Source of the DNA: Nitrospira sp.
Lineage (GTDB): Bacteria; Nitrospirota; Nitrospiria; Nitrospirales; Nitrospiraceae
Reading direction: 5' to 3'
Length of the DNA: 64,000 bases
Assembly (NCBI GenBank): GCA_005116955.1
Contig: SWDI01000002.1
Coordinates: forward strand, 63,315-127,314
Part shown: positions 33,790 through 42,764 of the stretch, piece by piece
Numbering within the stretch: the stretch's first letter is position 1
Layout of the letters: the number at the start of each line of letters is the position of its first letter
Position numbers and translations under genes: made by a program
Notes under the pieces: generated by a model
The model's database searches: none
What the model was told of the DNA's origin: nothing
What the model saw: only the letters and a program-made list of their open reading frames with translations

Positions 33790-34926
33790 TTAGAACGACT
33801 CGGTCAGCGCTCGATGCAACACATTCATCGCTGCTACAATATTTTCCGGGTTCTGCTGCATACGGCTTCCTAAGACAAAGATGGCATCTCGACCTAAGAC
33901 CGAACCCAGTTGCACTATGCGCTCAATCCCGATGCGCCCACCGATTGCCGGCATTATCGGTTTGATAGACCCCCAAGCCTGCCGACACTGGTCCGCCACC
34001 GAAACGCACTCCTGTTGCGACATCGGATAACCAGAACCGAACGCTGGATAGATGCTGAGGTCTGAGCCGACCAATCGAGTCAGAAGCCCATAGACGACAG
34101 GAGCAGCGAGCCCACCCCTGCCTTGATCAACCAAGGTGCCAAGCATGGACGGATGGCTTGCAATCGGCAGAGCAATCTCATCGTCTGACCGAAGCGTTCT
34201 CATGGCGTCGAAGCCGGTCAAGCCAGGCGCGACCAAGAGACCTGATGCACCCAGGGTCTTCGCCAACGTTGCTCGCCGACGCATTGTATCCAACGAACCA
34301 CTGATATGCGCAAAATACAGGCAAGGTCTTCCGCGCCGAATGCTTGCTCGCACAATGGTTTCGGCACAACGGGCCACGCGTTCTTCAAAGGGACACCATC
34401 GTTGATCGACTAGACTCTGGTCGTCCTTGATCATATCGACGCCGCCTTCGACAAATTGAATAGCCAACTCGGCAAGCTCCTGAGGAGTGCGGCCTAACGG
34501 CTTCAGTACCGCGCAGAGGAGTGGGCGATGGGACCGAACGACTGCTTGTCTGAGTCCATCAATCCCAAATCGTGGCCCCGGCCACGAAGAGAGCAGCCCG
34601 TTTGTCATTGCGAACGACAGCAACCTGATGTCACCACGAAGACTGCTTGTCCCAAACAAGACATTGAGCAAATCGCTGCACTCGCCACTGAGCAGGTCGC
34701 CGCGGAAGCGGATGGTGGCGTGATATCGACCTCCGACAGTTGCCCGCAGATCTTCCAGTTGTCCTAGAATCGTGGATTGGAGCGAAAGCGGAAGAAGATT
34801 GCTCTCGGCTTCAATGGTCTGATCAATACAGATACGCTCCGCCGTGCGTCGAGCGGATGACTCAGGTCCATTGATCTCATAAATCGCTGTGAGCCACTCC
34901 GAAGAATCATGGACAGTGAGACTCAT
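33790..34926 (-). CDS. RuBisCO-like protein (form IV, large-subunit homologue)
   Basis: CAVLKPLGRTPQELAELAIQFVEGGVDMIKDDQSL, ASHPSMLGTLVDQGRGG; substitutions at several RuBisCO active-site positions. Confidence 0.85.
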   Translation of the reverse strand: MSLTVHDSSEWLTAIYEINGPESSARRTAERICIDQTIEAESNLLPLSLQSTILGQLEDLRATVGGRYHATIRFRGDLLSGECSDLLNVLFGTSSLRGDIRLLSFAMTNGLLSSWPGPRFGIDGLRQAVVRSHRPLLCAVLKPLGRTPQELAELAIQFVEGGVDMIKDDQSLVDQRWCPFEERVARCAETIVRASIRRGRPCLYFAHISGSLDTMRRRATLAKTLGASGLLVAPGLTGFDAMRTLRSDDEIALPIASHPSMLGTLVDQGRGGLAAPVVYGLLTRLVGSDLSIYPAFGSGYPMSQQECVSVADQCRQAWGSIKPIMPAIGGRIGIERIVQLGSVLGRDAIFVLGSRMQQNPENIVAAMNVLHRALTESF

Positions 34927-39429: not shown

Positions 39430-39813
39430 CTAGCTCGTAAAGGCGGCGGCAGCCTCTTCTTCCGTGTTGCACAATTGAATACTTTCTCCATACACCCGGT
39501 TCAGCAGGTCAAAGCCGCTGGCTTGAAGAGCTTCTTTGACCATTCCCTTCGCAGCAGCAATCTTCATCTGCCCTTGAACATTGTTGAGCTGCTTGCAGGC
39601 CAGTATCAGGACTCGGATCCCTCCGCTGCTGATATAGTCGATATCAGCCAGATTGAGGATGACCTTTTTCGCACCCGCATCCACGATCTTTTTCATGTCC
39701 TGGTTTCCCTGTTCCGCGGTGGTGGCGGAGAGGCTGCCCTGCATCTTGACGAAAGTAATCCCGGCATTCTGGCGAGAGGTCACCGTCAATGCGTGTCTGG
39801 TTCCTTGATCCAT
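39430..39813 (-). CDS. STAS-domain anti-sigma-factor antagonist
   Basis: KVILNLADIDYISSGGIRVLILACKQL with candidate phospho-serine in ISSGG. Confidence 0.88.
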   Translation of the reverse strand: MDQGTRHALTVTSRQNAGITFVKMQGSLSATTAEQGNQDMKKIVDAGAKKVILNLADIDYISSGGIRVLILACKQLNNVQGQMKIAAAKGMVKEALQASGFDLLNRVYGESIQLCNTEEEAAAAFTS

Positions 39814-39989
39814 AATTATGTCCCTTTCCGATTAGGAGAAGATCGGCATTCTATCCTAGCAGGCTCATAAAAAACCAATTCGATCAGTCGGTGTCGTCCG
39901 ATACGATCAACGATACATTCTTGCACAGCACTCGCTGCAATCGACGACCCCACCTTTGAAGAATCAGCCAATGTTCCGCCTACACCTCG

Positions 39990-42764
39990 TCAACGTGCCG
40001 CTTGGACCTTTGACAAGGCTTCCTCCAGCGTAGAGGCATGGAGGCTCATCATTAAAGCCCCACTCAATTGCAATACTGTGCGAACGTGCTCATTCCCGCC
40101 GGAGAGCACAACTTTTCCGTCGGTTTGGGTCATCGCCATGACGGCTTTCAGGATCACCCGCAGCCCGATCGAGGAGATGTACGAAATGCGGGAGAGATCC
40201 AGTACAATCTTCCGTTCCCCCTGCTCGATATGGTCCATAAGGCTGCGCTCAACCTCTGGCGCACTGTTCGTGTCGAAGCGAGCCTGCGGAGTGACGATCA
40301 TCACGGTACCGTTTCGGTATGATTCAACGCGTGTCCTGAGATTCTTTGGGTCTCGGCGTGATGATGGCAGCGCTCCGACTTTGAACGAGCCGATCTCGGT
40401 CTTGTCAGGAGCCTTCGTGGTCGTGGACGTTTTAGATACCAACTGTTTTTTCACTGTCAAGACGTTGCGCCCCACAGTGCGATGGTACGACACCTCATCA
40501 AACATGGAGCGCACCAAGTGAATTCCCAGACCACCGATCTCGCGTTCATGAAGTAGTAGCGACAGATCAGGAGGCGCGACCGTTAACGGGTTGAAGGGAA
40601 TACCATCATCCGTAATGGTGAAGATGACGCAGGTATCACGCACTTCGCCCTCGACCTCAATGTGATGCTCCGTCGGGTCGTTGGGGAAGGCATATTGCAC
40701 CACATTATTGAGCAGATCATCCAGCGCCATATTGAGGGTCGGAATGAGCGGCTTGGCTGTTTCCCATTGTGCCACATACTGCTCAAAGTCCATCTGGAGG
40801 TCTGGAATGGCTATCAATTGATTGGGCATCGTTCGGCGGAAGACCCGAGCTGCCACGTCGGACGGGGCGACCCCGTGATACCGCAGTCCCAGCATGGTGA
40901 TATCGTCCGCCTGCGGGACTTCGCCCGCAAAGGTTCTCACTGCCTGCATGACTTCACCGAGGCGATCGACCACTGAGACGGCTTGGGATTTGGCGAGGAT
41001 TGTTTTTAGCCGGTCGTTACCGAACAGTTCGCGCCGCCGATTATCCGCTTCGGTAACCCCATCGGTGTACAAAAAGAGCTCATCTCCCGGACCCAATTGG
41101 ATGGTCGTCTCCTTGAAGGCGATGCCCGCCATGGGACCGACCATGGGGCCGTTGATGCCCGTCAGCCACTCAAACTGTCCATCCTGCCGTTTCAGCAGCG
41201 GAGGATTATGGCCGGCGTTCGTCGTGACGAGCGAGCCATTGCGGAGATTCAAGATACCGAGATACAAGGTCACAAACATGCAGGAATCGTTGTCCGCACT
41301 CAGCGCATCGTTGACATGCGTGACGATACTGGCAGGTGAGGGATCGGAGGCTGCCAGTGTCTTCACCATAATCTTGGTCATGGCCATGAAGAGCGCGGCT
41401 GGGACACCGTTGCCCGATACATCACCAATTACGAAACAGAGCCGATGCTCATCGACCAGGAAGAAATCATAGAGGTCGCCACCGACCTCCAGAGCCGGTT
41501 CGAGCACCGCGTAGAGTTCGATCTCTCTCCGATCCGGGAAAGCCGGGAATACGCGTGGGAGCATACTCCGTTGAATGTCCCGACCGACATTCAGTTCTTC
41601 CTGCATGCGGGCCTTCGCAGCCTCCATGACCGCCAACGAATCCGCGAGCCGCGCATTGGCATCTTCGGCAGCCTGTTCGGCGTGTTTCAATGCCGTAATG
41701 TCGGTCGCGATAAAGACAATCCCGCCATCATGCGTCTTCCGCTCATTGATTTGAAGCCACTCTCCACTGGACCGGTATTGAATGTAGGGTGTGACAGGAT
41801 TTCGATGCACATCGAGACGCCAGTGCATCCAGGGTTCGAGATTCCCGATCGCCGCTGGAATATCACCGCGTTCGGCGGTCCGGCGAACGATCGATTCGAA
41901 CGCGTCGCCTGCGTGAACTTCAGGCCCAGTCCCAGACATGACTTTGCGATATTTTCGATTACAGATGACCAGACGGTCGTCCACATCGAAGAGAGCAAAC
42001 CATTGGGGGACGCTTTCGATGGCTTCGATCAGTCGAGCATGGCTATCGCGTGCCAGGCTTGATGCCGCCGTCACTTGCCGATCAATGATGGCCAGGAGGG
42101 TCGAGAGTGAGACGGCGACCACCGCGAGGAGATCAACCTCGATTCCAGGCGGTGGAGCACTGGACGCGATGCCGGACATACCGTACGTCGGAATCATCCC
42201 GATGAAGTGGGACCCAGATAGCGCAAGTCCCATGGCGCTCGCCTTTTCTGTCACTCGCCAGTTTCTGTGCGTGATATTCCACGATCCGATCACGATGCCG
42301 ATAATGCTGAGCGCCACGATCCCAACCGTCGACAGCACAAAGAGCAACAAATCATTCTGGAGATCGATCGGCTGGTGGACCGCCATCATACTGGCGAAAT
42401 GAGTCAGGGTCATACAGCCACCCATCAGCATGCCCCCAGAGATGAGACGCATCCGACTGTCGATATGGCTGCTGATCAGGTATACAGCGACGGCTCCTGT
42501 CGCCCCGGCGGAGAGAAATGAAAGCACGGCAAGCCCTGAATCCTGTGCTGCTGAGACCGAGGGACAGAATGCCAGATTGCCGATATAGTGAATCGCCCAG
42601 ATTTCAAGACCCGCGGCGACGGCACCGATCGTCAGCCATCGGAACCTGACGGGGCCTTGGTCGGGAGCGCGCATCCGTTCGGCGATACTGAGGATGACAT
42701 AGGCAGCCGAGCCACCCAGCAGCAAAGAGGACACACCTAGCAAGGGATCGCACATTCCGAGCAA
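39990..42764 (-). CDS. Multidomain regulator: MHYT-like membrane sensor, PAS, PP2C/SpoIIE phosphatase, HATPase (RsbW-like) and STAS
   Basis: WAIHYIGNLAF, THFASMMAV, SHFIGMIPTY; GDLYDFFLVDEHRLCFVIGDVSGNGVPAALFMA; DDLLNNVVQYAF; IVLDLSRISYISSIGLRVILKAV. Confidence 0.88.
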   Translation of the reverse strand: MLGMCDPLLGVSSLLLGGSAAYVILSIAERMRAPDQGPVRFRWLTIGAVAAGLEIWAIHYIGNLAFCPSVSAAQDSGLAVLSFLSAGATGAVAVYLISSHIDSRMRLISGGMLMGGCMTLTHFASMMAVHQPIDLQNDLLLFVLSTVGIVALSIIGIVIGSWNITHRNWRVTEKASAMGLALSGSHFIGMIPTYGMSGIASSAPPPGIEVDLLAVVAVSLSTLLAIIDRQVTAASSLARDSHARLIEAIESVPQWFALFDVDDRLVICNRKYRKVMSGTGPEVHAGDAFESIVRRTAERGDIPAAIGNLEPWMHWRLDVHRNPVTPYIQYRSSGEWLQINERKTHDGGIVFIATDITALKHAEQAAEDANARLADSLAVMEAAKARMQEELNVGRDIQRSMLPRVFPAFPDRREIELYAVLEPALEVGGDLYDFFLVDEHRLCFVIGDVSGNGVPAALFMAMTKIMVKTLAASDPSPASIVTHVNDALSADNDSCMFVTLYLGILNLRNGSLVTTNAGHNPPLLKRQDGQFEWLTGINGPMVGPMAGIAFKETTIQLGPGDELFLYTDGVTEADNRRRELFGNDRLKTILAKSQAVSVVDRLGEVMQAVRTFAGEVPQADDITMLGLRYHGVAPSDVAARVFRRTMPNQLIAIPDLQMDFEQYVAQWETAKPLIPTLNMALDDLLNNVVQYAFPNDPTEHHIEVEGEVRDTCVIFTITDDGIPFNPLTVAPPDLSLLLHEREIGGLGIHLVRSMFDEVSYHRTVGRNVLTVKKQLVSKTSTTTKAPDKTEIGSFKVGALPSSRRDPKNLRTRVESYRNGTVMIVTPQARFDTNSAPEVERSLMDHIEQGERKIVLDLSRISYISSIGLRVILKAVMAMTQTDGKVVLSGGNEHVRTVLQLSGALMMSLHASTLEEALSKVQAAR

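Follow-up and report, generated by a model that had tools for sequence, protein, structure and literature searches.

A candidate partner-switching module in Nitrospira: an MHYT-like/PAS/PP2C/HATPase/STAS protein and its stand-alone STAS neighbour

The 64,000-nucleotide stretch of Nitrospira sp. contig SWDI01000002.1 analysed here (the window) encodes a 924-residue protein in which a phosphatase, an RsbW-like ATPase and a STAS antagonist follow one another behind an MHYT-like membrane region, and a second STAS protein is encoded next to it. What, then, is the role of a second antagonist beside a chain that already carries its own? An earlier note on this DNA had proposed that the membrane sensor could drive an intramolecular switch that is read out by the free STAS protein. 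Here we compare the locus with known systems, follow its residues and its distribution through the genus, and weigh the readings that these leave.

Architecture of the locus and its precedents

The architecture that the earlier note had read by eye is borne out by Pfam, as all five domains of the fusion protein score above the curated cut-offs at the coordinates expected (Table 1), with PAS, PP2C, HATPase and STAS in this order in a single chain, and the gene just downstream indeed encodes a STAS-only protein (STAS2). The fusion ORF starts with TTG, with AGGAG (42777-42773) 8 nt upstream, and, judged by its end-to-end conservation across most of the genus, it is not a chance ORF. Its PDB matches include an RssB-like PP2C, Rv1364c (3ke6), SpoIIAB and SpoIIAA. 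Pfam gives no Response_reg match in the protein, which has MHYT and PAS at its N-terminus instead. The gap between the fusion gene and STAS2 is 176 bp, with co-transcription only putative; a promoter and terminator scan returned nothing above chance. Elsewhere in the window, a 378-residue ORF (33790-34926, minus strand) reads by eye like a RuBisCO-like protein.

Table 1. Features of the module, in window positions, with the evidence for each.
Feature	Position	Strand	Evidence
924-aa MHYT-PAS-PP2C-HATPase-STAS protein	39990..42764	(-)	ORF + Pfam
MHYT-like membrane region, residues 1-236	42057..42764	(-)	Pfam PF03707, conservation
PAS domain (PAS_7), residues 249-364	41673..42020	(-)	Pfam, 1e-17
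Linker helix, residues 363-400	41565..41678	(-)	model helix 356-400, identity profile
SpoIIE/PP2C phosphatase, residues 438-629	40878..41453	(-)	Pfam 4e-50, PDB matches
RsbW/SpoIIAB-like HATPase (HATPase_c_2), residues 651-773	40446..40814	(-)	Pfam 1e-17
Hypervariable tether, residues 776-812	40329..40439	(-)	identity profile; gene split here in relatives
C-terminal STAS domain (STAS1), residues 814-916	40017..40325	(-)	Pfam 1e-16
Stand-alone STAS protein (STAS2), 127 aa	39430..39813	(-)	Pfam 1.7e-17

A whole circuit in one polypeptide, which the earlier note implied to be novel, already has a precedent in Rv1364c of M. tuberculosis, involved in SigF regulation, which carries PAS, PP2C, kinase and STAS in a single chain and autophosphorylates and dephosphorylates its own STAS (PMC7693655; PMC9138534). 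Rv1364c shares with the Nitrospira protein the PAS-PP2C-RsbW-like kinase-STAS order, the conserved STAS serine and the 3ke6 match. In contrast to it, with its 653 residues and no reported MHYT or membrane part, the protein described here is linked to an extra stand-alone STAS, has a C-terminal STAS that is split off in relatives, and carries Asp in place of the N-box Glu. PP2C and HATPase likewise share one chain, with STAS as a protein of its own, in HsbR/HsbA (P. aeruginosa) and CrsR/CrsA (Shewanella), where phosphorylation of the cognate STAS is established and the output runs through RpoS, FlgM or a diguanylate cyclase (PMC6482189); unlike our protein, HsbR and CrsR carry a receiver domain at the N-terminus, lack a fused STAS and have no membrane sensor described. 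The same three catalytic and partner domains, with key residues that align, make up SpoIIE/SpoIIAB/SpoIIAA and RsbU/P-RsbW-RsbV, but there they are separate proteins, without MHYT, that control an identified sigma factor.

On the sensor side, an N-terminal MHYT membrane domain is also the sensor of CoxC, MucR, NbdA and CdgB, whose outputs are LytTR or GGDEF/EAL, whereas here the outputs are PP2C and HATPase and the motif Met and Tyr are not conserved. Fusions of MHYT with histidine kinase, GGDEF, EAL, PAS and DNA-binding domains have been described (PMC11347149). No description of MHYT and SpoIIE in one chain was found in the literature searched, which was that of a single library; the two terms together brought up one paper, on c-di-GMP-related genes in Leptospira. 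The one-chain circuit and the PP2C-HATPase with a separate STAS are thus already known; what looks new is the MHYT-like sensor on a partner switch, found in this genus only among 296 genomes of the phylum, and a free STAS that is paired with a tethered one.

The sensor half and the catalytic residues

The N-terminal region matches MHYT (PF03707) in two stretches at 40.8 bits (cut-off 21), and a third motif was found by eye; the fusion is the sole MHYT protein found in the genome. The motif histidines His59, His122 and His186 are invariant in 23/23 orthologues examined, while Met is present in some orthologues and in motif 1 only, and Tyr varies. Since Met and Tyr are, with His, the presumed copper ligands, we file the region as MHYT-like and do not assume that it senses gas or copper; by family such sensing is possible, with a precedent in CoxC, whose MHYT domain senses CO with copper (PMC11347149). 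An MHYT domain is expected to have seven transmembrane segments; an AlphaFold model from 20 orthologues places seven helices at the N-terminus with low confidence (pLDDT 48.8), and simple hydropathy gives about four strong segments.

As mean pairwise identity over 20 genomes, conservation is 0.74 in the MHYT region, 0.79 in PAS, 0.88 in PP2C and 0.84 in the HATPase, and reaches its maximum of 0.93 in the helix 363-400, the most conserved segment of the protein. Because of this conservation, and because its position matches that of a coiled-coil linker reported to control PP2C dimers (PMC12143880), we propose that it is the signal helix to PP2C.

Conservation of single residues was judged in 20-23 orthologues. 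The metal-binding aspartates of PP2C (D430, just N-terminal of the Pfam domain, D448, D568, D620 and D621) are invariant, as are N687, D720-G721 (G1) and GGLG 744-747 (G2) of the Bergerat ATP site in the HATPase. The N-box Glu position, in turn, is Asp683 in every orthologue examined, against Glu in all five other HATPases compared, so that the kinase may be slow or inactive. S865 of STAS1 is invariant wherever STAS1 remains attached, and S63 is the matching conserved serine of STAS2; both fall on S58 in an alignment with SpoIIAA, just as N687 falls on N50 and D683 on E46 in one with SpoIIAB. The earlier note had staked its reading on HMM support for MHYT and HATPase and on the catalytic residues. 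Both profiles are recognised and the PP2C aspartates are kept, so that neither check refutes the reading, with two partial exceptions: the HATPase has Asp in place of Glu, and Met and Tyr vary in the MHYT motifs. Kinase activity and copper or gas sensing are therefore best called putative, and Asp683 and the degenerate MHYT ligands are the two main doubts about the module.

Distribution of the module, its tether and STAS2

Among the 54 genomes of the genus with at least 90% completeness, 43 contain all or part of the module, in most cases over its whole length and at 71-94% identity. That the genus is Nitrospira is probable from its genomes too: the 18-base sequence of the FISH probe Ntspa662 matches six of them and none from ten other genera, though not the window's own genome. 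End-to-end matches are confined to this genus in the 296 genomes sampled from the phylum; outside it, the match covers PP2C, sometimes extends into the HATPase and, in one genome of the same order (G036), reaches an adjoining separate STAS gene. A tblastn search of plasmids yielded no record covering 80% of the fusion protein, the best match being a Flammeovirga phosphatase gene that adjoins a separate antagonist gene.

STAS2 accompanies the module closely. It is present in 40/40 genomes of the genus whose module is untruncated and in 0/11 that lack the module (Fisher p = 4e-9 for module against STAS2 over the full table, uncorrected for kinship), and in G012 the fusion gene and STAS2 stay adjacent though their other neighbours differ. 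The STAS2 match of G022 is just 53% identical and lies upstream, not downstream, of the module. Three truncated modules were not taken as independent evidence of co-occurrence: that of G009 is cut by a contig edge; G297 appears to have undergone a single deletion that joins MHYT residue ~180 to STAS2 residue ~88 and takes out most of the module, with the neighbouring genes remaining (L112 8771-9355); and in G323 the module gene continues into a helicase gene, which in the window is several kb distant. The co-loss of STAS2 in G297 and G323 is not independent because it reflects contiguous deletions or rearrangements. The downstream 259-residue membrane gene, considered as a further partner, was rejected, because G297 retains it despite the deletion of the module. 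In G324 (L114 1774-7830) the module seems to be partly duplicated in tandem, with a full fusion and STAS2 followed by a second copy that corresponds to residues 556-924 and the first part of STAS2.

Set against 74-93% for the rest, the tether 776-812 has a mean identity of only 0.29 in the same 20 genomes, with 0.76 for STAS1 and 0.82 for STAS2. It is here that the gene is split in relatives. In six of them (G018, G016, G005, G306, G268 and G157) the frame ends after the HATPase and STAS1 is an ORF of its own, preceded by Shine-Dalgarno-like sequences at the junctions read, those of G018 and G306; the genus-wide matches indicate a like stop in G329 and G325, and the unfused relatives number at least six. 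STAS1 is truncated in G022. The unfused forms group on the tree, with about three state changes, which may have run either way, as the outgroup branch is very long. In G036 a Tll0287-like sensor sits on PP2C-HATPase with STAS separate, and in another genus (g3) receiver-PP2C, STAS and HATPase each have a gene of their own. Given these arrangements and the unfused relatives, covalent attachment of STAS is optional.

Other genes of these kinds occur elsewhere in the genome. A further STAS gene, with 87% identity to STAS2, follows genes for a histidine kinase and a LuxR-type response regulator (G000:C3:278195-278569; L063 7196-7579(+)), and extra STAS2-like copies are also found in G006, G011 and G330. 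A second partner-switch set (REC-HATPase, REC-PP2C and STAS) is encoded beside CheB and CheR genes (G000:C2:461887-464878; L062).

A proposed switch with two STAS substrates

The account that we favour, with some confidence, is that of a membrane-anchored partner-switching sensor phosphatase/kinase with two competing STAS substrates. The MHYT-like domain and PAS would sense a signal, and the sensor state would pass via the conserved helix to a dimeric PP2C and set its activity. The RsbW-like HATPase would phosphorylate the conserved STAS serine and PP2C would remove the phosphate. STAS1, tethered or encoded next door, may serve as a local substrate, a competitor or an occupier of the HATPase, and free STAS2 would be the diffusible output that frees an anti-sigma-type HATPase client or binds a downstream target, possibly with a sigma factor at the end of the pathway. 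The genome has RpoD-, RpoS-, FliA- and RpoH-like genes, as read from the translations of Sigma70_r3 matches; the search for a target sigma factor identified none, and 0/5 of these matches lie inside the window. Of the switch proposed in that note, the intramolecular part is weakened by the hypervariable tether and by relatives with STAS1 as its own gene, and the part given to the free STAS protein gains from its conservation and strict co-occurrence.

The HATPase and PP2C might instead act on the attached STAS1 only, with STAS2 serving another pathway. Rv1364c works on its own STAS in just this manner (PMC7693655; PMC9138534), and STAS1 is fused in most orthologues with its Ser kept; yet a domain that is encoded separately in at least six relatives, truncated in one and held by so variable a tether is an awkward sole substrate, and STAS2, whose occurrence strictly follows that of the module, is the more conserved of the two (0.82 vs 0.76), so that we regard such a closed circuit as unlikely. 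We find it rather unlikely, too, that the HATPase is no longer a kinase and acts as an anti-sigma factor or adaptor, leaving the protein mainly as a phosphatase under signal control that acts on STAS2 once a different kinase has phosphorylated it, for instance the REC-HATPase of the chemosensory locus. An Asp683 that is invariant in the genus, where five compared relatives have Glu, and at least one other RsbW-like HATPase in the genome speak for this, but the remaining motifs of the ATP site are all invariant, which would be unusual for a dead ATPase.

The N-terminal domain, finally, could be a mere membrane anchor or a sensor of something other than gas, with PAS as the real sensor. The variable Met and Tyr of the motifs and the lowest identity among the folded parts (0.74) are in line with this; three histidines kept at the motif positions in every orthologue examined and the demonstrated copper and CO function of the CoxC MHYT domain (PMC11347149) speak against it, and we consider it very unlikely. 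Within the favoured account of two competing substrates, a more specific version is possible, if doubtful: the MHYT domain would read a diatomic gas or the copper/redox state and feed it into partner switching by serine phosphorylation, the tethered STAS setting the threshold and the free STAS being the output. For a nitrite oxidiser, NO is a natural candidate signal.

If true, this would be a membrane gas-to-partner-switch pathway of a kind not described in the literature searched. More generally, the module would connect the MHYT sensor, known until now from c-di-GMP enzymes, histidine kinases and LytTR regulators, with partner switching by serine phosphorylation, and would do so in a genus of environmental importance and little-studied signalling. 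As the module occurs in nature both fused and split, it offers a ready comparison of the effects of tethering an antagonist.
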